From Tetrahymena thermophila SB210 (lineage: Eukaryota; Ciliophora; Oligohymenophorea; Hymenostomatida; Tetrahymenidae), in the NCBI RefSeq assembly GCF_000189635.1, contig NW_002476157.1:744001-808000 (forward strand): 64,000 nt of DNA, read 5' to 3'. The notes beneath the pieces are model-generated. The model was not told the DNA's origin and searched no databases. It saw only the letters and a list, made by a program, of their open reading frames with translations. Below are positions 2,096-60,379 of this stretch, piece after piece. The stretch's first letter is position 1, and each line of letters opens with the position of its first letter. A program made the position numbers and the translations under genes.

Positions 2096-2215
2096 GCTAT
2101 CGGCCATACTAAGGTGAAAACACCGGATCCCATTCGAACTCCGAAGTTAAGCGCCTTAAGGCTGGGTTAGTACTAAGGTGGGGGACCGCTTGGGAAGTCC
2201 CAGTGTCGATAGCCT
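2096..2215 (+). rRNA. 5S ribosomal RNA, copy 6 (compensated helix I variant)
   Basis: 120-nt 5S gene starting GCTATCGGCC and ending CGATAGCCT. Relative to the consensus, position 2 is C and 117 is G, and position 4 is A and 115 is T. Two helix I base pairs have therefore changed on both sides and pairing is fully restored. The upstream spacer is unlike those of copies 2-5. T-run terminator present. Confidence 0.97.
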
Positions 2216-2442
2216 TTTTTTTGTTTTATAAATTTTTATTTAGAATATATTTAACTGGCGTAAATAAATGATTGTTAATTTAAAAAGAGAGTAGTGAAAT
2301 TTTATAAAAATAAAGGGATATTAATAAAATATTCAATGAATGATTGTTATGATTTAATATAAAGTTCGAAAATAATAAATAAGAATAAAGATTTGAATTT
2401 TTTATCTGAAATTTATATAGATAGATAGGCCTTTTATAAAAA

Positions 2443-36761: not shown

Positions 36762-39700
36762 ATGAAAGCATATTTAATATTTTTTATAGTATTATTTAAA
36801 TAAATTTAAACATTTATCTAAGCACAGAGCTCAGTAGATTTCGTATATAGCTCTATTCCTTATAAAGAATATGACTTAAAGAGTATAAATGGAACATCTA
36901 GTGATATTAAAGTTGCATCTTCAGCTAGTATAGCAGTTATTGCTATTGGCTAAGGAGGATTGATGGTTATAGATAGTTCTTTTAAAAGTTATTATATTTA
37001 ACCTTCAGATTAAAGTTTTGTGTAAACCGTTTAGATTACAAATGATGCTAACTTTATATTTATAGGAATGAAAGAAAAGATAGGTATTTTAAGGGTTGAC
37101 TAAAAAGATTTTAGTGTTCATATGATTAACCAAATTGATGATCCATCTATAACAATTGTAGATATTTAATTAAGCTTAAATGAAGAAATTATGTTTATAA
37201 TTGGCTATTTGGGAATATTATAATGGTATGATGTAAGAAATATGACTAATATTATTTAACTTGGATAGTTGAACTATCCTTTAATGGTTTTTTATAATGG
37301 ACATATCTCTCCAAATGATAATCTTTTTTACATAGCCGCTGATTAAGATGGATTACTTGCTTTCAAGATTGATAAATATTTAGAAAATGATAATCTACAT
37401 GTAAATCTTACAAGAATATTAAGAAAGCCAGCTATTTCTAGCATGGTAAATTTTGTTATCTAAAGTAACAACTAGTATGTTATTGCTATAGATATGTGGG
37501 AAGGAATTTTTCTACTTTAAAATTTGAATTAATTGATGCTAGTAGGAGATAATGTTGAAGATCAAAATGAAAGTAAATCAAATAACATTAATTTTAAATC
37601 TATTATGACTAAAAAACATTTGACAAATTCATAAATTACTTTTTTTTTCTCTTTAAATTTAACAAGTAAATAATTTTAGGTGTAAATCTTAGTTTATTTT
37701 ACATTATTCATTTTATTTAACTAAGCAATAAGTAAGTAGAAGTAAATTATAAATCAATTATTAATTAATTAATTATTCATTCATCCCCTAATTAGTAAAA
37801 GTAAAAATTGATCAATTGAGAAAAAATAAAAATTATATTAAATCACTTAGTTTAATATTTGAATCAAATAGTTGATTAAATACAAAAACAATTTAAAAAC
37901 AAAATATCTTTCTTATAATTTATTTTAAGATTTTGTTAATTTTTTATTTTAGATTTATTAAATTTTTTTATTTTAATTTAAAAATAAATATATTTAGGTA
38001 TTGTTAATATGATCATGCTAAACATAACAACCACTTCTGAATTTCTTTCTTCTATAGCTATAAGTTCTGATGATAAATTTCTCTATATTGGTGCAAGGTC
38101 TTTGGGTATACTAATATATAATATATAAGATGTCCTTAATCCTTAGTTTTTTTAGTAAATTCAATTAAATGGGTAATCTTTTTCAATAGGCTTATCTCCT
38201 AGATTAAACAATAATAACAACAATAAATTTGATAACTAATACATTTTTTATTCCAATTCCTTATCTGTGTATGTTTTTCGAAAATAACAGCCTTAGCTTT
38301 TTAACTAAATACCAAACTTATTTAATGTTTAATAATCTTAGATGTTTACATAAAGTACTTCTAATTATAAATGGAGATGCACAATATCTTAAAATAATAA
38401 TTATTTTTTAGGTGGTTTTGACAAAGATGGCCTCTGTGTATTTAAAATTTAAGTTAATTCCTACACTGAATAAAATCCTTCCAAAATGTAATTATAATAT
38501 TAATTTGATTCGGTACTTCAATAAATAGTTAGTACAAACAAACTTATGTAATTTAGCTCTCCTGATTAAATTCCTTGGGGATTCTATGTTGAAAATATAT
38601 ATTTTTCAAAAAATGACTAATATATTTATTTTACTTCTACATAATATGATTTAAATATAATTGCATACAGATTTAAAGTTATTGTTTCCGATAATGGTGA
38701 ATATTCCTTTTAATTTGATAAAGCCTTAGTATATGATTAAGTTTATTATAGTGAGTAAATGGACTTAAGTGAAGACGAATAACATGCTGTAATGTCTTAC
38801 TAAGTTGGAATAGCTCTCGTTGATTTTGTGAAATTCGAAGTTATATCTATGTACAGTAATTCAGATGTAATAGGTAATTTTTGTGGTGCTGTTCTATCTC
38901 ATGATAAAAAACATGCATTGGCAGTTGCTAGAAATGTTGGATTATTTATTTACGATACTTCAGATATGAAAAATCCTAAATTGGTTAATCAATGGAGGAC
39001 AAGTGGTGGCGAAACCTTAATGAGATCAAAAACAGATCAAATTATATATTTAATTGACGGATTTAATGGATTAGTGCTATTAGACTCTACTTAATTACCT
39101 CAGATAGTTGTTATTGGAAGCTTTATCACAAATGGCTGGGCAAAATATATTTCCTTTACTTTAGATGAGAAATACGGAATAATATCTACTACAGATTCAG
39201 GAACTTTAACTTTGATAGATTTAACAGACAAATAAAATTTAAGAATTATAATGAAATCCACCATCTAATAGTAAACCTCTACAACAACCTGTGTTGGTAA
39301 CTACAAATTAAAGCTTATTTCATTATTAAAAATTTTTTTTTTTTCATATTGATTGATTTATTTATTTTAGATTAAACAGGTTTATCTTTTTTATTCTCGA
39401 CTAATAAATACGGAGTGAGACTGTATAACTTGCAAAATTAAGTGCTTATTCATGTTGAAAGAGAAGTTTTAAATGGAGCTGATACTTCTCTTCAAATGAA
39501 AAGTAACGAAAATTTTCTAATAGGTTAGTCCTACATAATTAGGTTTACTTCTCTCTATAAAAAGTAAAACTAAATAATTTCATAAATATATTACTACAAT
39601 AATTTGTAGCTGAAAAGTTTACCTAATTGGATTGATATCGATTAAAATTAGAGTGATCCTAATTTATAAATTGTGCTAAATCTAGTGATTCCGAAAGAAT

Positions 39701-42700
39701 CTTTGGATTTTGAAAACGACTTTTAAAGCTATTTAATTTTGGTTACTTAAACATGTCTTTAGCTAGATGAAAAATCTTTTATATTTAACAACGAAGATAT
39801 TACCACAACTCAAAATGAAAGCGCTTTAATCTTTTAATTTCTTCAGCATAATGGTTACACAGATAGGTAAAATTGTGCAACTAACTTATTTGACTCTACT
39901 TAATAGCAATACCTAAATATTTAAACAGCTTTTGCTGGAATCAGCATAGATCCTGTAAGGTTTGATATGATTTAATAATATGTAACAGAAACTTTTAAGA
40001 GATCAATTATTTTGAATTAATTTATATTTAATGTTGAAAGCTCTTTGTATTTTAACATAACTAACTCCTCATAAATGATTTTTTCAAACGTTAAAGATGT
40101 TACTGTAAGTCTAACTCTATCAAATAATTCTCCTTTTATTTTCGTTCAAAAAATATATCCCAGCTTAATTATTTATTTTAATGAGTAATTAACTCAAATG
40201 AAAATATAAGGGTAATTGGATTACATAAATTAAGTTTTTTATAATAAAATTTTATATTTTGACTAAAGGATAGCAGGGAAAAATGGAACTTATAATGAAT
40301 CATAGTAAATTTCAGTTTAAATTATTGATAATGTTAATTATGATTTAAACTTAAACTTTAATATATCTTAATAAGTCTCATTCTTAAAGCTTAAATCTGA
40401 TATAATCTAGCAAAAATCGATTTAGGATTAAGTTAATAAGTAATATCATTTAGCTGAACTCTAAATTGATGATCAATTCATGATCGAATTTGATTAGAAC
40501 ACATTTTAGGATACAGACTCCATTACTTTAACATACCAAATACTATAAAAAATAAATGGAGAATATTCTCCACTTTCTTCAGATTCTTTTATTAAATTTG
40601 ATAGTTTAAACCTTCGTATACAAGGAACCCCTCCTTCTAGCTATTTATTTCAAACTGTTTATCTTAGATTTCAAGTTACAAACGGATATACAATCAATTT
40701 TTAAGATTTTTACTTAAGAATATACCTGATGTCCTTCACCTACATTTTTAACTTATTAATTCAAATTTTAGGTCCATTGGCTTTTGCTGTTGGATTTTAT
40801 AAATAAAGATCTATTTTCATGAATATTTATTTTAAAAATAAAACTTTATACTCAACAGAAACTGCTTATGTCAATCAAATTTATAGAAAAAAAATAGCTA
40901 TTTTAGACTAAGATTATAGTATTGCGAGCTTATTTTTCTAAAAGTTTCTGAAAAAGATTGGTCAATCTTTATAAAAAGTAACAGTCGTTCAAAAATAATT
41001 GTAATCCTAGGTTTTTAATAGAACTAAAACTCCAAATTTATAAGTGAATTAATCTATGAATTTCTCATTTGAGAATCGTAATAGCAGCTTTAATACAAAA
41101 CAGTAAGAAAATCCAGTTATCAAAGTCTAAAAAACATAAATGTTTTTAGCAAATGAATCATAACAAGCTTGCTTTGATAAGCTTTTACTTGATAAAAAAC
41201 AGCATGATAAGATTAATTTAAGTTAAAATAATTAAGACAAAGAATAATAAAACTTATAAAAAAGTTAAGCATTAAAAAAAAATAAATCAAAAAAATAAAA
41301 AAATTCCCATCATTTTTCATAAAAATTTAGCTTGAAATAAAAATAAATTAAGCAATAATTAGAAATGTCGAACGATAATACTTCATAAGTTAAATTTAAA
41401 TAAACAGAAACAATTAAGGATCAAAATGAATAAATAAACTCAAACTAAAATCAAAATACTTCAGAAGTAGAATAAGAAAATGATTTAGTAAATTAAATAT
41501 TTTAAAATAGTAAATCAAAATATAAAGAATCATAGCAACTTTCAAGCAAACAAATTAGGAAATAAAAACTTCCTAATCAAATATTTGATATATAAAATGA
41601 TAATAGTTCTTAGTATTCTCACTAGCTTAACTTTAAAAAAACAGATACAATTAATGATCAAAATGAATAAATAAACAATATTATTTAAAATTTTTGCTTA
41701 TAAAATGTCAATAATAGTCTGTACGGTTTTGTTTAATTTTTAGTTAAAGGCACTTAAGACTCACTTAACTTGGAGAAATTATTTAATATTATGATCTAAT
41801 AAAACTTGACTATTTAATTAAATATGTAAAATTACCAAATATAAAATTATGCCAAAGATTTGTAAAATGAAAATAGCAGGTTTTATTACTGCTTAAAAGC
41901 AATAGTTGTGAGATTTTTATTAGAAAATGAAAAAAAAACTCTTAATGCCTATCAACAGCTGAAAAAAAACTCTATAAAAGCAGGAGAGTACTTAGCAAAC
42001 GATTGGTATAAGGATTATGTTGAAGTTACAGCTACAAATGAGTTAGACTAATTTGGAGTACCATTAGCATTTTCGAAAACAACTTTAAAAAATCATGAAA
42101 TAGTTAAGTAACTAAAATTGTTACAGATGATACCAAATATTTAAAATACTAGTCTAAATCAGTTCTATTCTATTTAAAAATATGGTATAAATCCATTCTT
42201 ACTTAAAGAAGGTATTATTTATTTTTTATATTTAATTCTTAGATTATAAATTTTTTAAAAATTCAATTAATAATTTAAAGTCCTCTTTGCTGATGCTCTG
42301 GGCTTAGATCTAGTCAACTCCAAAAATATAGTTAAATGCTATGGTGAATCTCTTCATTTAAAAAAGAATGAATTAATGTCAGTAGAAGCTTTCGAAAAGA
42401 TAGAAGAAGGTTGCTGCTTGTTTTTAAGAAAGTTTTTTAATCTTTAATATAAAAGTCTGCCCATTTCTAAATATGTCTCTTTACCAAGCTGGTTATCCTA
42501 CGATTACAAAAACGGTGTCATAATTTTGGAAGGAATACCCACCAAGTTAGATATTAATCATTATATCATAAGAGTTTACGATAATATTCGCTTTGTTTGC
42601 TTCTAGTATCATTTGATAATCAAAGATAATTCTTATGATGTAGATCAGGTTTAAGGTAATACCAACTCAGTAGATGAATTTCAAAACTAAATTAAAAAGT

Positions 42701-43083
42701 TTTCATAAAGTTTTGAAATAATGAATGCCTCTCAATCTCCTCTACTGTAAACAAAATAGGTAATATAGGCAAATTAATCTTCTTTTCTGAAAGAAATTTA
42801 ATCCTAAAAAATAGAAAACTTAGTAAATATAGCATTTGATTAATCTATCAAAATAAATTATTCCAACCCTAGCTCAATTAATATTGATTAAAAAAATGAT
42901 GAAATTGATGAAAAAGCTGACTATATAAACAGATCAGTAGGTGAATTAGATAATAAAGTTTCCTCTTTACCACACTTTAAGTATGGTCCTTAGCTGAAAA
43001 TTCCTTCTTTTTAAAATACACAAAATCCAATAAATAAAAATTAATTTGAAGACACTAAATAATTGAGTAGCAATTAAATTTGA
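36762..43083 (+). CDS. Large membrane protein: LVIVD-type propeller, cadherin-like, one main TM
   Basis: Four-exon model 36762-37572, 37998-39296, 39371-42211, 42281-43083; phases close and give 1,917 aa. An alternative first donor at 37666 adds 31 aa. Order: signal peptide (MKAYLIFFIVLFKQIQTFIQ); extracellular LVIVD-like repeats to ~700 (IAIGQGGLMVIDSS, LYIGARSLGILIYNIQD, VGLFIYDTSDMKNP, FNGLVLLDS); a beta-rich region ending in a cadherin-like stretch (LRIQGTPPSSY, VYLRFQVTNGYT); TM at ~1160 (FNLLIQILGPLAFAVGFY); then a ~740-aa Q/N-rich cytoplasmic tail. A second cadherin-like motif (LPSWLSYDYKNGVIILEGIP) lies near the end. It is probably a surface adhesion or receptor protein. I know of similar large ciliate proteins but no assigned function. 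Confidence 0.75.
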
Positions 43084-44264
43084 TGAAATCTGAAAAATTA
43101 TTTTTAAAAATAAATTCCATAAAATATATTTTTTATTATCCAAAAACAAATAAAAATAAGTTTATTTTTATATTTTAAATCGTTTTTAAAATAAATTTAA
43201 AATAAACGATTTATACTTTTTTAATATTTTTAATTAATTTTTTAATAAATACTTAATTTTTTTAAAAAATTAAAATAAATTTTAATTTTGAATATATTTA
43301 TTGTGCTTTTGAAAAATATTTTATATTTTAATATTTATTGTAAAATCTAATTGAAAAAGCTGCTTCAATTTTATATATGTTCTATTTATCATTTTAAATA
43401 ATTATTAAATAAATAATGACACATTTCATTTGTAAAATCTTTAAATTTAATAAAAGCAGAAAGAAATAAGTAACACAAGCTTTTTGATATTAGAAAATAA
43501 ATGTGTAAATACTAATAAAATTTTTTTATCTAATTCAGCTAATTTTTATGGGTGATATATTTATTCTTTTTTACTCAAGATTAAATGATAAATAAATATT
43601 TTTTATATTTAATGGATCTTTTATCATAAAATTTCTCATAGAAGAGACTTTTTTACTATTCCCATCTCTTAGTAAATGTTTATTTTATTAAACAATCAAC
43701 CAAAAGTGATATTTCTAAAAGAGAAATAATACGGCTTTTTAACATAGCTTTTACTAGCCATTCTATATATAGTTAATTCCTAACATCTTAAAGCTAACTA
43801 AAGCTACTAAATTCTTTTAACAATCTTAAAACTACAGAAATTAGAATCCTCTTTGATAATACAGCTAATATGAATTTGTTAAATTGAAAATAAAATAAAG
43901 ATTACGAATTTAATTATCCTTGAAATAGTGAGTGTACTATAAACAAGAGTAATATATATATTAAGAAACATACAAATATTCCTAGCTGATTTTTGAAAAC
44001 CCAAATACATTAAATATTAGTAGTTAAAATATCATAAAAAAAACAAAATTTGCTTCTTTAGTTAAGCTAAAAATAAATGTATAGAAATACTGTGCAAATT
44101 ATAAGTTCAGATCAAATGAATTTAAATTAAAAACAAAAAAAATACAATTTTAAAAAAATATAAATATAAATAAAATATGACAATTCATTTTTAAATAATT
44201 TTGATAAATATTATATCCCTATTTAAAATATTTTGATTGCTATTAATATCAAATACAAAGAAAG
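43084..44264. other. Intergenic AT-rich stretch
   Basis: No intact frame. A short match near 43700 (AAAAGTGATATTTCTAAAAG, compare AAAAGTGATATTTATAAAGT in the sensor gene) hints that the gene relic that follows may begin earlier. Confidence 0.4.
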
Positions 44265-44930
44265 AAATGATTTATATTATAAATTATTATATTCTCTAAA
44301 TAAATAAAAATAAATTCTAATTTGAAATTTTTATCAATTTTTATTCACTGATTAAATCTAAAACTATGATATTTAAACTTTAATAAAAGAATTACCTTTT
44401 ATGTGTTGCTTATGCTTAAAAACTAATAAGTTAAGCTTAGAAGGTAAAAGATTCTAATTTATATGGTTTTTAAAAAATAATTGTAATCAGTCAACCTAAT
44501 AACTCTTATTAGTATAAACAAAGCAAGTTTTAGAAAAAATAAACATCTCAAATATTAGAATAAATAGTTTAGACATTTTTTTTCTAAAAAGATCAAATTA
44601 TTATTTAAGATTCTTTTTATTAATATATGATATATGAATAAAGAAAATAAAACTTGATTATAATAAAAATCATTAAGTCTCTAAAAATTGATTAAATTTT
44701 GACTATACAATCCTAGATAGATAATAATCTTAATATAAATTCTTCAAAAATTTTTAATTAGATAGATATTAAGTAAAAGAAAATATCCAAATGGTAATAT
44801 GCCAATTAAAAATCTAGTGGTTCATGTGACTAGATATTTAATTGGCTTAACTTAAAAAATAATAAATTAATTATAAAAAAATTTATATAAGATTTAAAAC
44901 TAATACATACATACTCTAAATCCTCATTAA
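44265..44930 (+). pseudogene. Decayed fragment of the sensor-like gene family, 5' portion
   Basis: Degraded but collinear with about 27870-28510 of copy A. Successive matches include TTATATTATAAATTATTAT / TGTATTATAATTAATTATC, ATTACCTTTTATGTGTTGC / ATTTACCTTTAGTGCATCT, ACTCTTATTAGTATAAACAA against copy B, and GATAATAATCTTAATATAAA / GATAAGCTTAATAATAAATT. Frame breaks and indels are frequent and no usable ORF remains. It matches the middle of the gene only; the continuation reappears at about 50770. Confidence 0.6.
44801..44846. repeat. Hairpin palindrome, 18-bp arms
   Basis: Arms 44801-44818 and 44829-44846 are reverse complements with one mismatch, around a 10-nt loop (GGTTCATGTG). It lies inside the first pseudogene fragment, close to where homology to the sensor gene ends. 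Confidence 0.8.
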
Positions 44931-45027
44931 TTAAAGCTAGATAAAAAAATTTTTTTTCAAGAAAATTTGGCCATATTTAAAAATTCTCTTAAAATGGCCT
45001 TAATATAAGTTGGCCTTAATTAATGAG
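44923..45027. repeat. 105-bp segment bounded by 12-bp perfect inverted repeats
   Basis: CTCATTAATTAA at 44923-44934 is exactly repeated in reverse complement at 45016-45027. Inside, TGGCC words occur near both ends (TTTGGCCATATTTAA, AAAATGGCC, GTTGGCC). The size and termini resemble a MITE or an old insertion end, which is inference. It sits at the boundary between the sensor-gene relic and the duplicated Cys-rich/LRR unit. Confidence 0.5.
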
Positions 45028-45971
45028 AATGCACGGTATCTAATTTAAAATTAAAAAATAATTTAAATTAATACCCACATAAGTTAAAATTAGTTGTCAT
45101 AAATTTATTAAAATTATTTTTTTAAGTAAGCTTGATATTATTTATTCATATCTCTTTTAAAGATTAATTCTTTTAGTTACTTAGAAAAGATTAGTATTTT
45201 TAGACTTTAAAATTTTAATTAAAAAATGAATAATTTTAGTAAAAAACTTAACTTGTGTTTAATATATTAACATACTATTTTTTTTGATAGATAAGATAAA
45301 TTCATCAGAAAAGGCAATAAGAAAATCTTATGATCAAATTTTAAAAATTACCTATCAGAAATAATTAAATTAAAAGGACAAATTTAATTTTTTAATCCAT
45401 ATATACGTATTATTAAGAGCTCAAAAAAACATCAAAATCAATATTCACATCCAAAACTAAAAAGTAGACAAATATTCAAAACTAAGTTCAACCCTATTTC
45501 AAAAAAAAATTAAGTAAATTTATCTTTTCGTCTTTTTGTTAATTTATTTGATTAAAAACAAAAATTTTTTTCTTTTCTTTCTTAATTCAAATTAAAAATG
45601 CAGCTTTGAAAATGATTTTAATCTTATTTTATTTATTTATTTATGAAATTTATTTATAAATATTTTCGGTGGTTTTTTTCTGTAATCTAGCAAGTGGAAT
45701 TACAGTTGCCTATGTAGTATTAAAATCAGAATTCCTAAAGATAAGGTAGCTGATAATTTAATTAATTTTTTTTGAGTGAAATTAAAATAAGCTATGACCA
45801 GGAAAACACTAATCTGTGAATAGGAGATATTTAACTTTCAATCAGATTAATTTACCTTAATTTATTTTTTGCTTGATGTTTACTTACTACTTTATATGTA
45901 TCTCTATAAGAATGGTAAATCCATAATAATTAAATTAATTAAAACAAAAAAAAGCAAAATAAATCCAAGAA
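45028..45971. other. Upstream region of Cys-rich gene 1
   Basis: Non-coding. From about 45230 it is homologous to about 52390-53218, so the duplicated unit includes at least 700 nt of 5' flank. Confidence 0.6.
45796..45890 (+). promoter_or_regulatory. Conserved promoter block of Cys-rich gene 1
   Basis: A block with GACCAGGAAAA(C)ACTAATCTG, TTTACCTTAATTTA and TTG(A/G)TGTTTAC words is kept in order upstream of both Cys-rich genes (here and near 53031-53125), while surrounding AT-rich sequence has diverged. This suggests promoter or leader elements; function inferred. Confidence 0.4.
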
Positions 45972-46562
45972 ATGAAATCTATTTACATTACCTTAGCACT
46001 TATCTCCTTATTGGCATTTACTCAAGCTGCTGATCTCCCCTGTCCACTTCCTAGTTGTGATGGTGATGCTAATCCTTAATAATGTCAAGCTGCTTAGTCA
46101 CAACTTGCAATTTGTTTTGAAACTAAGTGTGCTAACTTATCAGCTTAAGATCCCTAAGCTCTTTTAACTTGCATTACTACTTGCTAACCAACATACTAAC
46201 CTTTAAAGTAGAAATATTAAGATTTTTTTAAATGCTTATCAACTAATTAGTAAATTTAAACCCTTTCAAAATGCGTTCAAGCAAATATGCTAGGATGTTA
46301 AAATGATTAATAAACTTGCGCAACTGCACTTTAAGCTTAATCCTAATGCGTTCAATCTAAATGTGCTAGTAGTATCAAAGGATTTGATGATTTGGATGGT
46401 ATTTAAAAATGCATTTTTTCAACCTGCAAAAGCGACTCTTCATTAGTTAATAATGCTGAAAAATAAATTTATGAATGTGCGACTGGAAAAAAAGTTTCAG
46501 TTTCTGCTAAAATTTTAATTTCATCAGTCTTCACCTTGATTGGATATTTAATCCTCTTTTGA
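45972..46562 (+). CDS. Secreted/GPI-anchored-like 16-Cys protein, copy 1
   Basis: Intronless 196-aa frame, ATG 45972 to TGA 46560. The signal peptide MKSIYITLALISLLAFTQAA is followed by a Cys-rich body of 16 cysteines in recurring pairs (CxxxxC, TCxxTC, QCVQSKC, KCIFSTC). The C-terminal hydrophobic tail (ILISSVFTLIGYLILF) sits at the very end, as in GPI-anchored proteins. The pattern fits small ciliate surface proteins; I cannot name a family. It is convergent with the LRR gene downstream and has a paralogue at 53219. Many Gln codons are TAA, so standard-code tools miss it. Confidence 0.85.
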
Positions 46563-47818
46563 TTAAATTATTATTAAATCAATAAATAAATCTAAAAAAT
46601 AAATATGTAAATTTGTGTTTTATAGAAACAAACTTTAAATTTAAATTTTTTTTAGAAATAAATTTTCACTAACTATTTTCATTTCTCATAAAATCACTAA
46701 GATATTACATATATAATGTTATATATTCTAAATTCAGAACATTCAAATATTACTTTAGATGATAAATACCTCATTTTCTATACTAAAACAAAATATAAAC
46801 AAGAACACTATTGCCTATTTCTGTTTCTTTGATTTATTAATATTAGTTTATTTGATTACTATTTTTTTTTTAATTTTCAAAAATATGTGAGGTCCTCCCA
46901 TGATAAACCTCATCATATATTTTTGAGACTAAAAATTTGTGTTGGGATTATATTGATTTTTATTTAATTTTTGATAAAAAAATTTTAAAAAAATATTTAG
47001 ATATTTCAAATTAATTTCTTTAAAATATAATTTCTAAAATTTAAAAAACATAATTCATTAATATTTAAAAATATTTTTTTTAATTTAAATAATTTTAGAT
47101 AAATTGAAATAATCTTACCTATCACCTTGCATCATTCGTCTTGAAAATGAAGTTTATTTGAAGTAAACAATATGCTGCAAACTACTTCTCCATCATTAAT
47201 TTATTCTTTATAATTTTTAAAATAGAAATCTTTTAAATCTAGGGAATGTACGATGAGAATGGTAAGGCAAATATTCTCATATTTTTTTATTTGTTTATTT
47301 CATTAATTTAAAGAAAATTTAAAAATTTCAAATTTATTTTTGATTATTTAAATATTTTTCGAATAATTCAAAAATAAAATATTAATGATAAATGATGAGT
47401 TACTCATTTGAAAAGACTGATTAATTAAATATATAAAATGCAACTGCATACGCTGTACCTATAATTTACATAGATACAATACATATTTTTTATTTTTACT
47501 AAAATATAGTAAATTTTTATTTTCAAAATAATTAATATCAAATTATTACTGAAAAAATAGTAATAAACCTTTAACAAAAATAATAATTCAATCAATCATA
47601 GTCTAATCTATAATAATAAACATTGATGTCTATGAAAAGTAATCTTTTAAAATACATTTTAGCTATTTAATTGTAAGTCTTCAAATCAGTTTAGTCTCTA
47701 TATAATTATTTATAATTTCAAAGATTATAATTATTAATTACAAAAATATTACCCAATAAGCATATCAAATGAAATTAAATTTTTTATTTAAGAAAAAGTC
47801 CTAATAAATTAAGTTAAT
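46563..47818. other. Non-coding stretch between convergent genes, copy 1
   Basis: 3' flank shared with the LRR gene. About 46860-47450 is largely absent from the second unit, and it includes an imperfect hairpin (TGTGAGGT..ACCTCATCA near 46887-46915). Whether 47110-47200 hides an exon I cannot tell. Confidence 0.45.
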
Positions 47819-49987
47819 TCATATTTTTAGAAAATAGGTGCTCTTATTTTATATAAAATATATTAAATTTGCTTATTTTTAATTGATAAAGTTAATTATT
47901 TACTATAAATTTATACTTATCTTGAATAATTACTAAAGTTGCACTGTACTTTTGGCTAAACTCAATAAACTCTCAAAACTTTAATTGTTTGCCCTTTGTA
48001 AAAAAAATAATTAAAGAATATCTTTTTATAGCTTCATAATTTTACTTCAGTATTAGATTCATTATTTGTAATTATTTACACCCAGATATCTGCTTGCTTA
48101 AATTATACATATCATTTGAGTTTATAAAACAAGAACTTTATTTATATTAAAAAATATCTTAAAAACAAAAAGTTTATTCTTTTAAATATCAACTGATATA
48201 AAAGTTAAATTTTATTAATTAAAAAATTTAAAGCTTTTAAAGTATATTTTACGTTAAGTTTAAATAGATATTTTTTAGGTTTTATTTATTTAAAAGCCCT
48301 AAATCAAGTACTTATCCTTCATGCAACACATTATGTCTATTTATAAATTAACTTTATTATTTAAAAAAATCAAAAATTTTATAATACTATAAAGATAACT
48401 TTAATTCTTCCAAATAACTACATTCAATTATTGCTTATCCTATTTCATTTGCTCCATACTTTGTTATACAATTTTCTCTTTGAATATTATTTATAATTAA
48501 TCTAAATTTTAATTTTACAATTAAAATTATACTTTAAAAATAATTGTAAAATCCTAAGTTAGGGGCAACTTTTAATAGCCAAACTAATTTTTTGTGCACC
48601 TTCATATTTGAGGAAATTTTAACTATTTATTTAATTTTATCAATTTCATATTAAATATTTGCAATAATACTTAAAATCTAAACTCAGAACATTTAAGTTT
48701 TATCCACTTTATTAAATACCTTTAGATATGTCAATAATCCCTAAATCTTCTACTTCATTTTATCTTTTAGTTTACAAAAAATTATTTGCTATTTAATTAA
48801 TTAATAGATAAAAATAAGAAATCATTTGGATAAATTGGAGATTGCTATTTAAAATAAGTCATAGTTTTATTGATTTATTTTTCTAAAAAAATATATAAGA
48901 AAATTGTAAATAAGATATCCTAAAATTGAAAAAATTATGAAATTTTATAATAAAAATAATCGAAAACAATAATGTTCAAAAAATATTTTTTATCAAAAAT
49001 TGGTTTTTATTTAATTAAGCCTTAATTTTTTTTCTCATTTTTCTTAAATTTTGCTTTAATGAAAATTATTATTTGTTATCTGGATTTTAAATAAATTAAA
49101 AAATTTCAATTTAATTTAACCACCTAAAATTTAGCTTGAGAAGAGATAATCTATTCAAATTAATTATGGATTAACCTAATTTACATAGCAGCTTGTTTTT
49201 TATTAGACACCTCCTATTTAAAAAAAATAATTTTAATAAAAATCTTTGATAATGCATGCATTCACTCTAAATCTAATTCTAGATGTTCAAGATCATCACA
49301 TTTCTTTAAATTAGAAACTAAAAATTCGCTTTCTTCACCATCTCTGATTGCTAAAATACTTTGATATTGAAAGGATAGTTTTTAAATAAGAAAAAAAATA
49401 ACAAAATAATTTGTAAAAAAATTTACTTGAATTTTATTCTCAAGTATTTCAAATGGATATTTTTAGCAATTACTTCACCAATCAGTACAACAATTTATTG
49501 GCCAATCATGCTATTACTAATTTATAATAATTTTTATTTTTAGTTCAAGATATTATTTACCTTAAATGTATATCTAGCTTTTAAAGTAAATCATAAGTTT
49601 TAATAGCTTGCTTAATACTAAATAATCCTTCAGACCATATATAGCATTCTCTAATTTTAATATTTAAGCATCAAATTATAATAATTTTTATATAATTACG
49701 GTAACAAAAGAGATAGTTCTTTTATATTTTTTAATTTTTTTAAAATTCTTCCAACCTAAACAACATCCTTTCTTGAACATTATCTATTTGTATATGTTTT
49801 TATTAATTTTATAATATGAATTTCATTTTTTAAAATATATACTTTTTGTGAATCTCAAGTATTTCTATTGAATCAATATTAATATTAGAAAGCTTTTTTT
49901 TATAAGAAAGATAATTCAATTTCTTTATTTTAATTATACAATCATATTTACATTTATATTATCAATATCTGATATTTTTAATTCCAT
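47819..49987 (-). CDS. Leucine-rich-repeat protein, one repeat per exon, copy 1
   Basis: Thirteen-exon model (minus): 49952-49987, 49843-49892, 49700-49783, 49561-49650, 49427-49516, 49266-49358, 49124-49213, 48671-48763, 48533-48622, 48388-48501, 48253-48351, 48046-48135, 47819-47993. These sum to 1,194 nt, 397 aa. Every intron except the first is phase 2, and most internal exons are 90-93 nt, one ~30-residue LRR each: ILKKLKNIKELSLLL, VIAKNIHLKYLRIKF, NLKKCDDLEHLELDL, AIIECSYLEELKLSL, LLNKQNLKNIYLNL. No signal peptide or TM is seen, so it is a cytoplasmic interaction protein by inference. Introns are 31-117 nt except one of 360. The first exon is the least certain. Confidence 0.75.
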
Positions 49988-50769
49988 TTTATTTTACTAT
50001 TAATTCTTTGAAAATTAATTCTTAATATTTGTGAATTAAATTTGGTTTTTAAAGAAATTCCTTTGATTTTGTAACACAATAAAATTATAAATTGATGAGA
50101 TTTATTTATTTATAAACTAGAATTTAATTGATTATTTTAAAAATATTTGCTCAATTTCATTTTTTATAAATTTTAATAATTATTTTATATTCGTAATTAT
50201 AATAAAAAGACTATTAAATTTTTATTTGAAACTAAATGAAAGACATAATCTCTATTTCAATTTTATAAGTATTCAACTACTATCAAAAATTTGCATCAAT
50301 TTTTATCATCATAATTAACAAAAACAAATTAATTAAGATTAAAAGTAAATCATAGTTTAAAAAATTGATTAAATGCAAAACTTCAGTTGTCTTCTGTTAT
50401 GATTTAGTAAAAAACAAAAAAATTTTCTAAAATTTTAATTTTTGAAAATTCTCCAATATTCATAAACCCAATTCGCAACTAGCCATGAATAAATATGGTA
50501 TATAATTATTTTAAACTACACCTACTTCAAATAATTTAAAACGAAGCAAAAATTTCAGGTGTCGTTTAAATTAATTAAAAAGCAATTTAGTTTAATGATA
50601 TTAATATTTAGTGTATCTACGAGGGAATAGACGAAAGTGTTGTTTAAATATATGTTGACCAGAATTTCAAAATAAAAAATTTGTTAAGCTAGATAATATA
50701 TTCACTCTAAATAAAAGATCAAAGTGTACTTAACATTTTTTTGTTTTATAATAATTATTGAAATGTTAG
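49988..50769. other. Upstream flank of LRR gene 1 and unit end
   Basis: Homology with the second unit (56883 onward) fades near 50270. The rest is AT-rich with no supported gene. A weak resemblance to the sensor gene near 50365 (GATTAAATGCAAAACTT) is too short to rely on. Confidence 0.45.
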
Positions 50770-51480
50770 TAATAAAAATAAAATAAAGTATTTTTGGAGA
50801 GCAAAACATCTCTTTTTTGATTTTTTAAAGAAAATTTGATGATATTATACTTTTATTTCTATAACCTTGAACTTAAAATATCTTAGTAAATCAATTAAAA
50901 TTTGCTACTAAAACTTTCACAAGATTGCATCAAATAAAGAAATATGTTATCTATAATAATAATTTAAGTCTTTACTACATTTAATTCAATCTAATTTTAG
51001 AAAAAATTCACATATAAACAGATAAGCATCTTTTAATTTAATGAAGTGAAGTAAACAAACAAATAAATATAGAAAGATATCTTATTAATCCTCTAATTAA
51101 TTTAAAGAAAAAGAAAAATAATAACTTTATCAAAAATAATCATTCGAATAATAAATGGAAATTTATAAAAGTGGAACTAAGAGGAAACAATAATAAAATT
51201 TAAAATAAAATAGTTTTTAAAGTAAATAACTTGAATCTTTTTGATTAGAAAACAAATATACTTTAAAGATTTGATAAATATATAAGAAATTTTAAAAAGA
51301 ATTGTAATTTAAAATAAAAAATGGTTGTTTATTTTAATTGAAAAAAAAAAATTCTTCGAAAATAAGTATATGATAAACTATTTTTGGAGGTTTTCCATCA
51401 TGCATTATTTTATCATTACGAATAGGTAAAGTATGTTTCATAATTCTATAATAAAATTTATACAAAACTTTTGAATGGTT
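50770..51480 (+). pseudogene. Decayed fragment of the sensor-like gene family, 3' portion
   Basis: Collinear, degraded match to about 28585-29930 of copy A. Examples: GAAAATTTGATGATATTATA / GTAGATTTGATGATATAATA (copy B), TAAGTCTTTACTACATTTAA / TAAGTCTTTACTGCATTTAA (copy B), AATAAATGGAAATTTATAAA / AATAAACTGGAATTTATAAA, and CTTGAATCTTTTTGATTAG / CTTGAATGCTTTTGATTAG. Multiple deletions and frame breaks. It starts almost exactly where the fragment at 44265-44930 stopped in gene coordinates. Confidence 0.65.
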
Positions 51481-53218
51481 ATATTTACGCATATATTCAA
51501 TATTTAGAATGAGAAGATTTTAAAACAAATTAAATGTTTTTAGATATGTTTTATGTATTAATTATTTAAATATAAATCTTAATTTATTTGTATAGTGTTT
51601 TTGTTTACTTTAATTAAGCTCTTGCTTTTAATAAGAAAATGGAGATTAAATTATTTTCATCGTGATTAATTAGAAGTCTAAGTTAGACTTTGTATAATAA
51701 TTAAGAGAAAACAACAGCTTTATGAATTTTTTAAAATCAGAAATAATATAAAAAAAATTCAGTAAAATACTTATCAAATTAGAAAAAATTAATTAAATAA
51801 TTTTAGATGGTGCTTTATTTGTCACAACAACAAAAATTTTGAGTGACTTTATCAATAATTAAAAATCTAAATTAGACTTTGTACAAGAATTTAATTAGTA
51901 ATAAGAAACTTTACTTATTTTTGTTTATAAGACATGATAAAAGAAAATTTTATGTAAAATAAACATCAAATTAAAAAAATAGCTTAAATGACTTTTAGTT
52001 AGATATTGAATGATTTGCCATTACAGAAAAATGAAAAGTTTATTGATAAAAATAAATTTATACCTTATTTTTTCAATTTTCTAATATAAAATTAAAAAAA
52101 TTTACATCCTAATATATATTTTTATTTTTATTTATTTATTACATTGTAAATTTAAACAAAAGTTGTTTGAGTGAGCAATTTTATATTAGGTATATTTAAT
52201 TTATTTGTTATAATTAAAAAATAATATAGATTAATGACTAAAAAAAATTAAAATTATTTGGTATTTATTTTAATTGAAAAATATTTTGTTTAAATATACA
52301 ATTTTTTTAATTGCTAATTTAAAGAGTTGCCACTTTTAATCACAGAGAAATGATAAATATTATTAAATCTTAAAAGTTTATTTTAAAAATGAATAATTAC
52401 CGCAAAAAATCGAGCTTTTGTTTCATATTAAAAAAAGTAATAAAAAATTATTATTTTTTTAGAATAGATAAATAAATAAATAGAAAGAGAGAGAGAGAGC
52501 TAAATGATAATTTTATGATCAGCTTGTAATAATACGATCTATCGTAAATTATTTAATTAAAAGGACAAATTTATATTTTTTAATTTAGATAAACATATTA
52601 ATTGGAAGTAATGCTTAGGGCTAAAAAAAACATCAAAATCAGTGTTTACAGCTCAAAGGTAAAGCTGATGATTGTAAATTAAATTTTATATAAAAAAAAT
52701 CTCTCTTTACACTTTATGAAAGAAAATTAACTAAACTTATGTTTTTCCTCTTTTTGTTTATTTGTTTTCTTCAAAATTTCTTAAATATTTTAAAGAAATC
52801 CTTTTTCTTTTCATTAAAAATTGATATTTTGAATAACTCTATAAATGATTTTATTCTTTTTGTATGAATTTATGAAATTTATTTAAAAATATTTTGGATG
52901 GTCATTTTCTTTCAATTTGGCTAGTACGATTATAATTGTCTAGAAAAACTATTAAACAGAATTCGATCCAAAAATTAAATTGATCGCTCCTATTTTAATT
53001 AAATTTTTCTGAATAAGTAATTTAAATTATATGACCAGGAAAAAACTAATCTGTGAATAGGTGGAATTCTTAATTTTCTATCAAATTGATTTACCTTAAT
53101 TTAATTTTTGTTTGGTGTTTACCTATCTATCTATCTACTATAAATACAATTCTAAAAAATTGATAAATTTATCATAATTAAATAATTAAACAAAAAATAA
53201 AACAAAATAACCCAAGAA
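51481..53218. other. Spacer and upstream region of Cys-rich gene 2
   Basis: AT-rich, no supported frame. From about 52390 it is homologous to the flank of Cys-rich gene 1. It contains a GA microsatellite near 52482-52499 and TATC repeats near 53122-53137. Confidence 0.5.
52482..52499. repeat. GA microsatellite
   Basis: AG/GA dinucleotide run of about eight copies in the non-coding upstream part of duplicated unit 2; not present at the matching place in unit 1. Confidence 0.85.
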
Positions 53219-53812
53219 ATGAAATCTATTTACATAACTTTAGCACTTATTTCCTTATTAGCATTTACTTAAGCTGCTGATCCTTAATGCCAAAAACCTA
53301 CATGTGCTGATGATCCTAATCCTTAAGAATGTCAAGATGCTTTGTCAAAACTTGAATCTTGTGTTTAAACTAGTTGTACTAACATTTAAGCAGGTGATTT
53401 CTAGGCTATTTTAACTTGCTTTACTACTTGCAAACCAACTTACTAACCTTTAATTAAGAAATTTGAAGATTATGCTGAATGCTAAATATCAACTAATCCT
53501 TAAATTGCAAAGCTCGTTAAATGCGTTGAACCATCATTGTTAGGATGTTAAAATAATCCAGCAGATTGCCAAACTGCATTTTAAGCTTAAGGTGAATGTA
53601 TTGCAAATAAATGCCCTAGTGTAGTCAAAAGTTAAGATGATTTAGATGGTATTTAAAAATGCATTTTCTCTACCTGCAAAAGTAGTTCTTCAATAGTTAA
53701 TAATGCTGAAAAATAAATTTATGAATGTGTCACTGGAAAAAAAGTTTCAGTTTCTGCTCAAATTTTAATTTCATCAGTCTTCACCTTGATTGGATATTTA
53801 ATCCTCTTTTGA
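53219..53812 (+). CDS. Secreted/GPI-anchored-like 16-Cys protein, copy 2
   Basis: Intronless 197-aa paralogue of the gene at 45972. Signal peptide and hydrophobic tail are unchanged in protein sequence (SVSAQILISSVFTLIGYLIL against SVSAKILIS). All 16 cysteines are kept in register (QCQKPTC, SCVQTSC, TCFTTC, ECIANKC, KCIFSTC), but the residues between them have diverged strongly in the first two thirds. Conserved ends with a varied core are typical of surface antigens that diversify after duplication. Convergent with LRR gene 2. Confidence 0.85.
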
Positions 53813-54668
53813 TTAAATTATTATCTATCTACAAATAAATAAATACTAAAATGTATTATCTATATGTTAATTTGTATTTTTTAGAAAACAAACTTTAAAT
53901 ATACATTTTTTTAAAAAACAACTTTCCACTAAATATTTGAACTTTCCATAAAATCACTGAGATATTACATATATATTAAATATTCTAAATTTATAACATT
54001 CACATATTACTTGAGATATAAATACCTCATTTTTTTTACTAAAACAAAAAGTAAGCAAGGAAGCTGCTATCTATTTCAGTTTCTTGGGTTTATACATATT
54101 AGTTTATTTAATTGCGTATAAACACAATATAAAAAATTGGAAAGGGGGGGAAAAACATAGGATTGAAGTTGAAACCCAATTTTATTACCATTTTATAAAA
54201 ATTAAATGAAATACCTATATCTGTATCTACACAGTTGGTGATTTTTTATTACAGGATTACAATATATAAAAAGAAAACTACCTAAGAGGTACATATACAT
54301 ACATACAATACAAATTTTTTACTTTTACTAAATTTATAATTTTATTTTACTTCTAAAACATTTAAATAATTTTCAAAATAATTAATATTAAATTATTACT
54401 GAAAAAATAGCAATAAACCTTAAACAAAAACAATAAGTCAATCAATCATAATCTAATCTATAATAATAAACATTGATGTTTATGAAAATTAATCTTTTAA
54501 AATATTTTTTAGCTATTTAATTGTAAGTCTTCAAATCAGCATAGTCCCTTTATAATTATATATAATTTATAAGATTAGAAATATAAATTATAAAAACATT
54601 ACCCAATAAGCATATCAAATGCAATTAAATTTTTGATTTAAGAAAAAGTCCTAATAAATTAAGTTAAT
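53813..54668. other. Non-coding stretch between convergent genes, copy 2
   Basis: Homologous to the 3' flanks in unit 1 but lacks most of the 46860-47450 segment. Contains a G run (GGGGGGG near 54144), unusual in this DNA. No gene seen. Confidence 0.5.
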
Positions 54669-56882
54669 TCAGATTTTTAGAAAATAGGTACTCTAATTTT
54701 ATATAAAATATATTAAATTTGCTTATTTATAGTTGATAAAGTTAATTATTTACGATAGATTTATACTTATCTTGAATAATTACTAAAGTTGCACTGTACT
54801 TTTGGCAAAATCCAACAAGCTCTCAAAACAATAATTGTTTCTCCTTTGTAAAAAAAATAATAAAAGAATATCTTTTTATAGCTTCATAATTTTACTGCAG
54901 TATTAGATTCATTATTTTTAATTATTTACACTCAGATATCTGCTTACTTAAATTATACATATCGTTTGAGTTTATTAAACAATAACTTTTTTTATATTAA
55001 TAAATTAAAGTATTCCATATTTTTAAATATCAAAAAATATCTTTATTAACAAAAAGTTTATTCTTTTAAATATCAATTAATATAAATATTACTTTTCACT
55101 AATTAAAAAATATTTAAATATTAAAAGAAAAATTTACGTTAAGTTTAAATAGATATTTTTTAGATTTTATTTATTAAAAAGTCCAAAATCAAGTACTTAT
55201 CCTTCTTGCAATAAATTATGTCTATTAATAAATTAATTTTAGTATTTAAAAAAAAAAATAATAATAATACTATAAAGATAACTTTAATTCTTCCAAATAA
55301 CTGCATTAAATTATGGCTTTTCCTATTTCATTTACTCCATACTTTGTTATACAATTTTCTCTTTTAATTTTAATTAATCTAAATTTTAATTTTACATTTA
55401 AAATTATACTTTAAAAATAATTGTAAAATCCTAAGTTAGGGGCAACTTTAAATAGCCAAACTAATTTTTTGTGCACTTTCATATTTGAGCAAATTTTAAC
55501 TATTTATTTAGTTTTATCAATTTAATTTTAAAATTTCTTTCATTTTACTTAAAATCTAAAATCAGAACATTTAAGTTTTATCCACATTATTAAATACCTT
55601 GAGAAAGGTCAATAATCCCTAAATCTTCTACTTCATTTTATCTGTTAGTTTACAAAAAAAATATTTATTATTTAATAATAAAATAAATATATAAAAAATA
55701 AGAACTCATTGGATGAATTGGATTTTGTCATTTACAATAAATTATAGTTTTATTGAATTTTATATTATTAAGAAAACAGAAAAAAGAAGATTGTAAATAA
55801 AAAATCTTAAAATAAAAAAAATTATAATAAAAAATAATGCAAAAAGATAATGTTCAAAAAATATTTTATATCAAAAATAGGTTTTTACTTTATTAAAAGT
55901 TAATATAAAAAAAAATTTTTTTCTCATTTTTCTTAAATTTTGTTAAATCAAAATTATTATTTTTTGTTTAGATTTTAAATAAGTTTAAATAATTTAACCA
56001 CCTAAAATTTAGCTTGAGAACAGATAATCTTTTCAAATTAATTATGGATTGACCTAATTTACATAGCAGCTTATTTTTTATTAGACACCTCCTATTTAAA
56101 AAAAATAATTTTAACAAAAATCTTTGAATATGTATTCACTCTAAATCTAATTCTAGATGTTCAAGATAATCACATTTCTTTAAATTAGAGACTAAAAATT
56201 CGCTTTCTTCACCATCTCTGATTGCTAAAATACTTTTATATTAAAATGATAGTTTTTAGATTGTTCTTGATAAAAATTCAAGATAAAAAAATAACAAATT
56301 AATTAATAAATCATTTACTTAAATTTTATTCTCAAGTATCTCAAATGGATATTTTTAGCAATCACTTCACCAATCAGTAAAGCAATTTATTGACCAATCA
56401 TGCTGTTACTAAGTTATAATAATTTTAATATTTAGTCCAAGAGATTATTTACCTTAAATGTATATCTAGCTTTTAAAGCAAATCATAAGTTTAAATAGCT
56501 TGATTAATACTAAATAATCCTTCAGACCAAATATAACATTCTCTAATTTTATTATGAAAGCATCAAATTATTATACTAATTATGTATAATTTACGGTAAC
56601 AAAAGAGATAATTCTTTTATATTTTTAAACTTTTTTAAAATTCTTCCAACCTAAACAACATCCTTTCTTGAAGATTATCTAATTGTATATGTTTTTGTTA
56701 ATTTATTATGGGAATTACATTTTTTTAAAAATATGCTTTTTCTGAATCTGAAGTATTTCTATTGAATCAATGTTTATAGTAGAAAACTTTTTTTTTATAA
56801 GAAAGATAATTCAATTTCTTAATTTTAATTTTACAACCATATTTACATTTATATTATCAATATCTAATATTTTTAATTCCAT
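54669..56882 (-). CDS. Leucine-rich-repeat protein, one repeat per exon, copy 2
   Basis: Paralogue of the LRR gene at 47819-49987, with the same order of repeat exons and the same phase-2 junctions. ATG at 56882, stop at 54669. Exon reading gives ILKKFKNIKELSLLL, VIAKNIHLRYLRIKF, NLKKCDYLEHLELDL and the same end (STYFLKI). Exon 10 is 6 nt shorter, so the frame is kept. Many differences are synonymous (CAA/TAA, GGC/GGT), which suggests both copies have been under selection. The donor after the second exon is GC (GCATAT) instead of GT; if it is not used, this repeat would be misspliced. I did not sum every exon here. Confidence 0.68.
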
Positions 56883-57787
56883 TTTATTTTAATATAAATT
56901 CTTTCAAAATTAATTCTTAAAATTTAAATATTAATTAAATTTTGATTTTGAAGTAATACCTTTGATTTTTTAACACAACAATAATACAAATTAATGAGAT
57001 TAATTTATTTATAAACTAGATGTAATTTTAGTTAATTATTTTAAAAATATTTGCTCAATTCCTTTTAAATTGATATTAATAATAATTTTATCTCCATAAT
57101 TGTAATGATAAAAAGATTATAAATTCTTATTTGAAACTAAATAAAAGACAAATAATCTCTATTTCAATTTTACAATTATATTAATTAACATCTTGTTAGA
57201 TTTTTATAAATTCAAATTTTTTAATTCTTTTTGACTTCAATTAATTTTAATAATTTATTTTTGATAAAGTTAGTAATAATTTTTAAAATGTACTCTAAAA
57301 ATAAAAATAAAAAAATTTAAATTTAAAAAATACTATATTAATTTTCGATTCTGAAATTATTTTATTGAATATTCACATTTAAGTCATTAAAATCTTAATT
57401 TTTAATCAGATAAAATTATTTTTTATGTTATTAAATTTTAGTAAATTGGGAAGTAATATATTTAAAAATACAGAGGTATTAAAATGGTAATTAATTTTTC
57501 TAACAGTAAAATTAATGACAAAGCTATTTCTAATTTCAAATTAAAATATTCTTGTTTAAAATATCTTAGCATGCCATTTACATTTTAATCCATGGTTGGA
57601 AAAAATAATTAAAATTTAAAAGTGGAGATTTTAATTTTGATCACCTTGAAACAAAATTTTACTGAAAAACACAAATAAATAAGTAAGTATTCATAAATTG
57701 CTCGAATAATTTTAATTAATTAATAAATAAATAAATAAGAAAATAAATTATAATTTCTGATATATATTTATTTGAAAAATAAATTAA
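56883..57787. other. Divergent promoter region
   Basis: Upstream of LRR gene 2 (minus) and of the membrane-protein gene (plus). AT-rich, unit homology ends near 57180. No supported gene. Confidence 0.5.
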
Positions 57788-60379
57788 ATGAATATTTAAA
57801 GTGGGCCATTATAAACAAACTAAGTTAGCTTTTAATCATAATTTAAGTATAATTCTTAGCTGAATTTGACTCAAGGTGAGCAATTAGATTAGGTTTAAAG
57901 ATAGAAACATCATCATAATTAAAAATAATAAAATAATATCAACTTAGAAACTAAACACCATCATTTATAGAAAGATAAAAAGTAAATTAAAAGCGATGAT
58001 GAGAATGAAGCTACAAAACAATCAAAACACAGAAAGGAAACCATTATAAGTAAAAAATATACCAGTAAAGGTAGTCAAAAATACGATAATATTTTTGAGG
58101 GATTTGGAGATTTGCTATTTGATGAAGAGGACTAGAGTAAAAAAGACAATTAGACTACTGATAAAAATAATTTGACATCACCAAAAGCAGATGATCCTTC
58201 TGATAATTAAAATATTTTGAAAAATAACACTAATTAAAGCAACTTCAATATGGTTGATCCTAAAATTTGCTTAGACATGGATCCATTTAATATTTAGAGT
58301 TAAACAAACTAGCAAAACTAGTAAATAAATTTGGATTTTGGTACAACACTTAACAAAGAAATAGTAGACTAGTAGAACACTCAAAGGAATCTAAATCTTA
58401 ATTAAGACTAAGTTACACAAAATATAAAATTACCATCTTCTAATTAATCAAATGAATAAGAATAGATAAAAAATTATTATAATTTAAATTCTAAAGATTA
58501 AAATTAGCAGATCAATATCTAATAACCAAATTAATTATTTGGAAATTAGATTGTATAAGGTTTTTACTCTTAGAGACCTAACTAATAATATTAAGTAGAA
58601 TATCTTTCTTTGCTATTTACTGATGAATAAGATAATAATAATAATAATAATAGTAATCAATTAAACAATGAAGTTAAAAATAAAAACAAGATATTCTTCT
58701 TCTTCTTGATGCTACTTCTATTTATTATATATTCTTTATTTGGTTATATTGTTATTTTTATCATTTTTATCATATCTGCTTTTAGAGAAATTAGAGGTAA
58801 ATTGTCTAAAGTTTGCATATTATTTTGGACTCTAACTAGCTGTGCTGCAACACTTTATGTTTTTGGAATTTAATTCTATTATTATATCAGTGATACTAAG
58901 GTATAATATCTCTTATTTGATATCAATAGTTTTTAATTAGCAGTCATGTTAGTTATTTCATATGTGAGAGCTTGCTATGTAGAGATTATAGATTAATCTA
59001 ATATGTTCAAATCAGTTTTAAATTTTGATACATTTAGAGGTCTAATCTATCTAAATAGCTCTTCTAAAGATTCTGAGGCTTCTCTTTTTGATATACCTTT
59101 CAGTGAACCAATTTCAGCTTAAAATATTCAGCAAAGATACTCTCTGCTAACTATTTCACCAATTCCTTCATAGCTTAATTATTCTATTAGTAAACTACTA
59201 AGCGGATTTTAGGATTATTATTATCCTAATTTCCATCAGTATTTAATAATTGTCTGTATTTTGATTCTTAAATTTGTTTTAGGATTTTACTATTTATATA
59301 GTAAGCATAACCATATTAACATAAGATATGCTATCGATATTACTATAACGGTGTTCGTTTATCTTTACTCAGCCTTTATTTTAATTAGAATTCTGGGAAA
59401 TTACGACCTTATAAGAAAAGCTGATCAAATGAATAATCTGAATGATTCAATAAACTTTTAAAATCTTAAATAAGAAAAGTATCAAGAAAAACTTGATTTT
59501 ACTTGTCCAATAAGTCTCGAAACTTGGGATAACGCGCGTCAGTATGTTTGTTCTATAGATCTTGAGTTTCTTTCTGAATTAGAGTATGCATATTTTGGCT
59601 TGTTTTTTTACTTTATTTTTGTATCAGTTATAATCACCACAGCTTATGGAGAATTTTATTGGATTATCCCTAAGGAATCTATACTACTTGAACCATATAT
59701 GGTTATATTAAATACATTTAACTTTTTAATAGTTAATAGCTTACTTTTCTTTAGGTTATGGTATGGTTAGCAGTTTAATGATACATTCGAATTGTAACAG
59801 TAGAGCCTTGAATTTTTGATGGATATTGTTGAAGACATTTAGCTAATGTATGAAGCTTACTTTGAGCCATTCAGGTTTGCAAATGAGCAAATAATAGTTT
59901 AATAAAAGCAATATGGCCAAAATAAAGTAGATATAGAGAATATCAAAAGACAGCAAAGAGAAAAATATATAGCTTAGTATTTAACTGAAGTATAAAGCAG
60001 GAGTGAATAGTAAATCATCACTCAAAAAGATATAACTGTTGACAAATACTCAATATAAGGACTACTAATATAAAGAGTAAAATAGACAAGCAACTTTTAT
60101 ATAGATGAAAAGGTGCAATACTAAGGAAAAGTGTATTAAAAATAGGACAAAGCTTTATTAAGAAAAAAAATTCTAAAAAATATTTATCTAAGTCTTAATA
60201 AAGTGATTACTTCTATCAAAAATGATGCTGAAAAATATTAGTATCAGTTTTTAAACTGCATACCAGTTTCATTTTCAAATACTCTTACAACATTTGCAGT
60301 TGCTTTATTTACTCTTCTTCCTTAAGTGATACCCAAATTCTTAGGCTTCTACTAAGATATTAGTTAGAATTCTAAATGA
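57788..60379 (+). CDS. N/Q-rich multi-pass membrane protein, unknown function
   Basis: Intronless frame of 864 codons; ATG 57788 is the first after an in-frame TGA near 57757, and the stop is TGA 60377. Residues 1-~295 are hydrophilic, with HHH runs, Lys-rich patches and N/Q low complexity including an Asn run from AAT repeats near 58630. From ~300 on there are about eight hydrophobic segments: FFFLLMLLLFIIYSLFGYIV, VCILFWTLTSCAATLYVFG, LAVMLVISYVRACYV, YLIIVCILILKFVLGFYYLY, ITITVFVYLYSAFILIRIL, FGLFFYFIFVSVIITTAYG, VILNTFNFLIVNSLLFF and a final FSNTLTTFAVALFTLLP. A charged Q-rich loop of ~150 residues precedes the last segment. I do not recognise the family; a seven- or eight-TM receptor or transporter is possible. 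Confidence 0.75.

Follow-up and report, generated by a model that had tools for sequence, protein, structure and literature searches.

A decayed third copy of a tandem-duplicated gene in Tetrahymena thermophila, probably split by insertion of a two-gene block

A decayed third copy of a tandem-duplicated gene in Tetrahymena thermophila SB210, relic C, lies in two halves with a block of two other genes between them. The best explanation, which we consider likely, is that the block was inserted into this old pseudogene and split it, because the halves abut on the gene, have diverged equally from the intact copy B, are about equidistant from the intact copies A and B, and are separated by DNA that is nearly all block or dispersed repeat. 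An earlier note on this locus had proposed insertion of a Cys-rich/LRR unit into an older third copy of a sensor gene, followed by decay and then by a second duplication of the unit. While insertion stands as the best reading, the subsequent decay and the order of duplication are not supported. The locus offers a datable case, resolved to tens of bases, of apparently working genes inside a dead gene of a ciliate, each joint bearing repeats, and it brings together three linked clocks: the relic, the block copies and the A/B pair.

The window that we analyzed is the whole 64,000-nt stretch at positions 744001-808000 of contig C332 (NW_002476157.1), taken from an assembly of 101 Mb in 445 contigs. 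Its long frames are open under the ciliate code (code 6), and coordinates given without a contig refer to it (Table 1). The assembly carries the telomerase RNA of T. thermophila on C67. The intact members A and B are tandem duplicates. Their family is large, with clusters on at least C308, C91 and C31, and its longest matches beyond the A/B/C locus have 32-35% protein identity (both from the 30 of 109 first-look candidates that were scored).

Table 1. Features of the locus and of the related block relic on another contig.
Feature	Position	Strand	Description
Copy A	25329-29966	+	Intact family member; open frame of 1545 aa; likely intron near 5' end
Copy B	31034-35912	+	90% identity with A (25922-29984); start placed by alignment to A
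Relic C, left half	43701-44792	+	Matches B 33158-34349, score 392.3
MITE-1, dispersed repeat	44796 to ~44908		Hairpin head 44798-44849; right edge approximate
MITE-2, inverted-repeat element	44914-45036		TA on both sides
Unit 1, two-gene block inside relic C	45038 to ~50450		Homologous to 52208-57179; ends also match C288 relic
Unit 1 Cys-rich gene, product probably secreted	45972-46562	+	Open under code 6; 196 aa, 16 Cys, hydrophobic C-terminus
Unit 1-specific stretch between block genes	46857-47424		Alignment gap vs unit 2; largely dispersed repeats
Unit 1 LRR gene core	47753-49650	-	Seven exact 90-bp, phase-2 exons
Unit 1 LRR exons, four of seven	49650-49561, 49516-49427, 48622-48533, 48477-48388	-	
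Unit 1 LRR exons, other three	48135-48046, 47993-47904, 47842-47753	-	
Dispersed repeat R	~50437-50660		Conserved right terminus at breakpoint; left edge approximate (50417-50437)
Relic C, right half	50658-51474	+	Matches B 34401-34885 and 35520-35912; internal deletion of ~640 nt near 51112
Unit 2, second block copy outside relic C	52131-57179		Begins 0.7 kb downstream of relic
Unit 2 Cys-rich gene	53219-53812	+	Open; paralogue of 45972-46562
Unit 2 90-bp LRR exons	between 56666 and 54603	-	
Decayed block relic, both ends	C288 ~997121-995868	-	On another contig

The relic was matched to A and B by local DNA alignment, with composition-aware scores fitted to AT-rich DNA. A permissive alignment (match 5, mismatch -4) was discarded, as it joined relic and non-relic AT-rich DNA alike across both flanks; at the local G+C of 18-20%, such scoring lets alignments run through unrelated DNA from one end to the other. 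With the fitted scores, the decayed third copy claimed earlier proved to be real. Against B, the left half and the two right pieces (50658-51112 on B 34401-34885, score 235.1; 51105/51115-51474 on B 35520/35530-35912, score 182/177) reach 392, 235 and 182, clearly better than shuffled AT-rich sequence, for which the maxima from 100 dinucleotide shuffles of each region are 65.5, 63.3 and 71.7. The scores against A are 330.7, 195.9 and 191.1 (60-shuffle maximum 77.7), with the reverse complements reaching 51.5 and 55.2. The top score of 39 real control windows on this contig, none of which touches the relic, A or B, is 63.0; in an earlier set of 41 windows, which this set replaced, the window 42501-44212 overlaps the relic and scores 214.3.

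The extent of the relic had to be revised. The left fragment, previously placed at 44265-44930, begins about 560 nt earlier (43701) and stops at 44792, and 44796-45036 is dispersed repeat. The right fragment, previously placed at 50770-51480, begins at 50658 and is discontinuous, part of the gene being absent within it (Table 1). Upstream of the relic, the first ~2 kb of the gene are undetectable, as 43084-43700 scores 41.7 (30-shuffle maximum 53.0). In tblastn searches with the A and B proteins, the right end of the relic is significant (E ~1e-14, 45 bits), whereas the left half is not, with E 0.017 and 29.6 bits where the best of 200 shuffles reaches 34.3 bits. For the left half, this protein-level result speaks against the relic. 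We explain the weakness of the left half by its frameshifts, which the DNA alignment tolerates.

The frame of relic C is disabled by 49 indels, 38 of which are frameshifting (28 of 35 in the left half and 10 of 14 in the right half are not multiples of three), whereas the A/B pair has six, two of them frameshifting. Differences by codon position are near-flat in the three aligned stretches (0.31/0.27/0.36, 0.34/0.33/0.33 and 0.34/0.29/0.33). With homology beyond chance, a disabled frame and a near-neutral substitution pattern all present, relic C is, judged from these alignments, a pseudogene that lacks its 5' end and belongs to the tandem-duplicated A/B subfamily. The two halves have decayed equally: the left one has a divergence from B of 0.426 (0.374-0.486), the right one of 0.451 (0.393-0.517). 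Both are also about equidistant from A and B: the left half has 380 differences from A and 367 from B in 1059 columns, and the right half has 166 and 157 in 452 columns and 114 and 118 in 361.

The fragments had been described as abutting in gene coordinates, 5.8 kb apart and with unit 1 between them, and this description holds. The halves have no overlap, with 51 nt of B lying between their matches, and the 5,865 bp between them are made up of two MITE-like repeats, the two-gene block and the dispersed repeat R. Two independent breakpoints in the 4,638-nt gene would fall within 52 nt of each other with a probability of 0.022. When the flanks were joined in silico, a single alignment ran through both halves with a best score of 348.3, which does not exceed the scores of the two sides taken separately and added (162.5 + 202.3). 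Breakpoints and repeat edges coincide within a few bases: the left homology runs to 44792 and MITE-1 begins at 44796, and R stops at 50660 and the right homology starts at 50658. The joint is inexact, as 51 nt of the gene are absent or unalignable, and no target-site duplication was seen by eye around it, where these 51 nt are unaligned.

In the insertion reading, a two-gene segment homologous to the block 0.7 kb downstream would have been copied into relic C in the germline, in what may have been a single event between the equivalents of B 34349 and B 34401. The most likely route would be that nearby DNA was copied during break repair or ectopic recombination. MITE-1, MITE-2 and R might have come with the copied segment, might have been recombination sites or might be later inserts. 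Besides the inexact joint, the target-site duplication not seen and the score of the joined flanks, it speaks against an insertion that the two edges carry different repeat families and that no source sharing these edges can be seen. Additionally, the halves of the block are of unequal age; this would take later gene conversion or two steps, and it blurs the date of insertion.

The arrangement might instead have arisen with no insertion, by a tandem duplication from the middle of C to past the block; the 3' part of the first C and the spacer would then have been deleted, giving the order C5'-unit 1-C3'-unit 2. Tandem duplication is common here, as seen for A/B and for the family clusters, and it would explain why the two blocks have the same orientation. 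However, this requires the end of the deletion and the duplication breakpoint to lie no more than about 50 nt apart, a coincidence to which the probability given above for two independent points applies. Neither the 3' part of relic C (score 39.9, shuffle maximum 49.6) nor the spacer at 51475-52130 (40.1, shuffle maximum 49.3) has left a trace in 44793-45060, which is nearly all dispersed repeat up to 45036. Moreover, a simple tandem duplication would leave the ancestral right flank at unit 2, whereas it is unit 1 that has this flank. We regard such a history as unlikely. It is highly improbable that the fragments are the remains of two different dead copies, complementary by accident; such an origin would suit a family that duplicates readily and relics that lack the 5' end and part of the right half, but accident would have to account for complementarity within 51 nt and for halves equal in distance to B and in position relative to A and B. 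We give hardly any credence to chance alignments of AT-rich DNA or to an assembly artefact, as the relic, despite the behavior of permissive alignment at this G+C and the left half falling below the best tblastn shuffles, scores several-fold above the 100 shuffles per region and the 39 real windows, the shuffles excluding chance, and units 1 and 2 differ by ~10-30% and are therefore not one sequence assembled twice.

Repeats of different families mark the two edges of the DNA between the halves. MITE-1 has an inverted repeat with 21-nt arms (90% complementary) and copies on C322, C78 and C164, among others. A near-identical right half of MITE-2 occurs on C81, C176, C184, C64 and C328, the element being complete with TA at both ends on the first three and partial on the last two, and its 16-nt TIR core has 19 exact genome matches including its own (reversed control 0). 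R has copies on C261, C186, C125 (two), C60 and C148, and its terminal 24-mer gives six genome matches with at most two mismatches, its own included (control 0). Beside unit 2, no copy of the edge repeats was found. The idea that a single transposon was the carrier was rejected, since MITE-1/MITE-2 on the left and R on the right belong to different families; matching terminal repeats at both insert ends were not found.

TA-flanked MITEs are of the Tc1/mariner type, and most transposons are removed from the macronuclear genome. MITE-2 resembles TA-flanked MITEs in being short, in its terminal inverted repeats with TA on both sides and in having several copies, and it differs in its setting, as the present assembly of 101 Mb has macronuclear size (passages of PMC6564038 give 103.0 Mb for the macronuclear and 157.7 Mb for the micronuclear genome). 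The left terminal repeat of MITE-2 is clearly diverged compared to its near-identical right half, as if the element were chimeric or partly converted.

The block consists of a Cys-rich gene and an LRR gene that are convergent, and both units have the same orientation. Between 45045-50272 and 52208-57179, identity is ~69-79% before 46365 and ~91% over most of the LRR half, and the divergence of the units is largest upstream of the Cys-rich gene, at 0.302 (0.26-0.35), compared to 0.110 in the LRR half. These differing ages suggest later gene conversion in the LRR half. The stretch 46857-47424 between the genes of unit 1 has many genome-wide matches (query 1949-2382) and is absent from unit 2. 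A tandem repeat (51667-51806 / 51856-51998, 73%) lies in the spacer that separates unit 2 from relic C.

The earlier order of insertion followed by decay is probably reversed. Third-position divergence between C and B is 0.495 (0.42-0.58) and exceeds the largest block divergence of 0.302, which comes from a noncoding stretch that may be constrained. Because of this excess and the near-flat codon-position pattern, decay probably began before the insertion, assuming that the insertion made the duplicate. Under the same assumption, the insertion came after C had split off. The share of its branch that C spent as a working gene is roughly estimated at -0.12 (interval -0.84 to 0.45), and C has probably been dead for at least half its history.

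The decayed relic of the block on C288 bears on the order of the two units. No trace of the Cys-rich gene was found in it by tblastn, and no edge repeats were among the matches there. Its main left match is directly preceded by 57 nt like those of unit 2 (52131-52187). On the right, its flank follows unit 1 as far as 50450 with a score of 150, compared to 63 for unit 2, which stops matching unit 1 at 57179. The left flank is hence common only with unit 2 and the right flank only with unit 1. Given this sharing, each present copy of the block seems to have lost one ancestral end, so that the order of units 1 and 2 is unreadable and the proposed later duplication of the unit is not supported. 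We consider it very unlikely that the block is a dispersing cassette, i.e., host genes repeatedly copied as a unit with the edge repeats as recombination or mobilization ends. If it were, live and fast-evolving genes for surface and LRR proteins would land in dead genes, and the C288 relic would be an older landing.

The LRR label given to the unit fits, as the gene has the 90-bp-exon structure described in passages of PMC6564038 and a leucine pattern visible by eye. Both units pass the threshold of three exact 90-bp exons flanked by phase-2 introns, with eight such candidates in unit 1 and nine in unit 2, of which seven are shared, leaving one unit 1 exon that is not. In 300 shuffles of each unit, the mean was 1.0 such exons and the maxima were 5 (unit 1) and 7 (unit 2); the opposite strand has none in unit 1 and two in unit 2. 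The seven shared exons are preserved, with 6.7% divergence compared to 12.1% outside and 0 gaps in 630 columns, the latter partly because a length of 90 bp in each copy was the basis for selecting them. The LRR gene looks like a live gene. Its exact 90-bp exons and flanking phase-2 introns are like those of the Tetrahymena 90-bp-exon LRR genes, for which passages of the same paper propose ectopic recombination as a driver, stress exon shuffling and report that ~1.6% of T. thermophila LRR genes resemble direct tandem duplicates of entire genes (PMC6564038). In contrast, the whole LRR gene core is here duplicated along with an unrelated neighbor.

The Cys-rich genes are open in both units and encode proteins of 196-197 aa with a signal-like start, 16 Cys each and, by inspection, a hydrophobic tail. 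Their product is probably a secreted surface protein with a GPI anchor. A genome search with the gene gave three matches in all, i.e., the pair and one weak match on C174. The first 21 residues of the pair are identical, with 0 replacement changes in the first 21 codons, and the tail is nearly so. In a simple Nei-Gojobori estimate with no significance test, dN and dS are 0.37 and 0.27 in the middle, 0.04 and 0.15 in the tail, and 0.22 and 0.25 for the whole; a diversifying surface protein pair is possible. The Cys block CX(>=6)CX(>=1)CX(>=1)CX(>=1)CX(>=1)C within 120 aa is present in both (residues 24-71), a loose pattern that is found in 4,925 of 24,725 proteins according to passages of PMC4136848. 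With periodic Cys, a hydrophobic C-terminus fitting a GPI anchor and local duplication, the pair resembles the T. thermophila Ser surface antigen candidates described there, but it comprises just two close copies and the likeness is one of Cys pattern and tail (PMC4136848). The pair may matter more than the split, given its conserved signal and tail, its equal Cys number and replacement changes that equal or exceed silent changes mid-protein.

The components of the locus are of known kinds: tandem arrays, pseudogenes and 90-bp-exon LRR genes, all known in Tetrahymena, and repeats near joints. The split is ordinary genome change. The CYP5005 cluster of T. thermophila, as described in passages of PMC2691746, is likewise a tandem array with a dead member known by its broken frame and with local duplication as a main source of copies, whereas the dead member here is also cut by a block of unrelated genes. 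Among the matches listed in a literature search of titles and abstract starts there was no paper on such a split, which is not proof of absence, and passages of PMC5182062 do not mention MITEs or pseudogenes.

For A and B, Pfam gave TPR matches that are all below the cut-off, and the product appears membrane-spanning by inspection and, weakly, TPR-like. There were 0 Pfam matches for the neighbor gene 39169-43083, the unit 1 Cys-rich protein and the frame 57776-60379, 0 NCBIfam matches for A, the same neighbor gene and both Cys-rich proteins, and 0 Rfam matches over 43000-58000. A search of solved structures with A gave no match (best E 0.66), and the predicted structure of A residues 227-619, made with B alone as alignment partner, has a mean pLDDT of 41 and a pTM of 0.25. 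The frame 39169-43083 contains an internal repeat (41225-41439 / 41453-41676, 69% identity), and overlapping internal repeats that are 79-90% identical are found near the left end of the window (783-2247).
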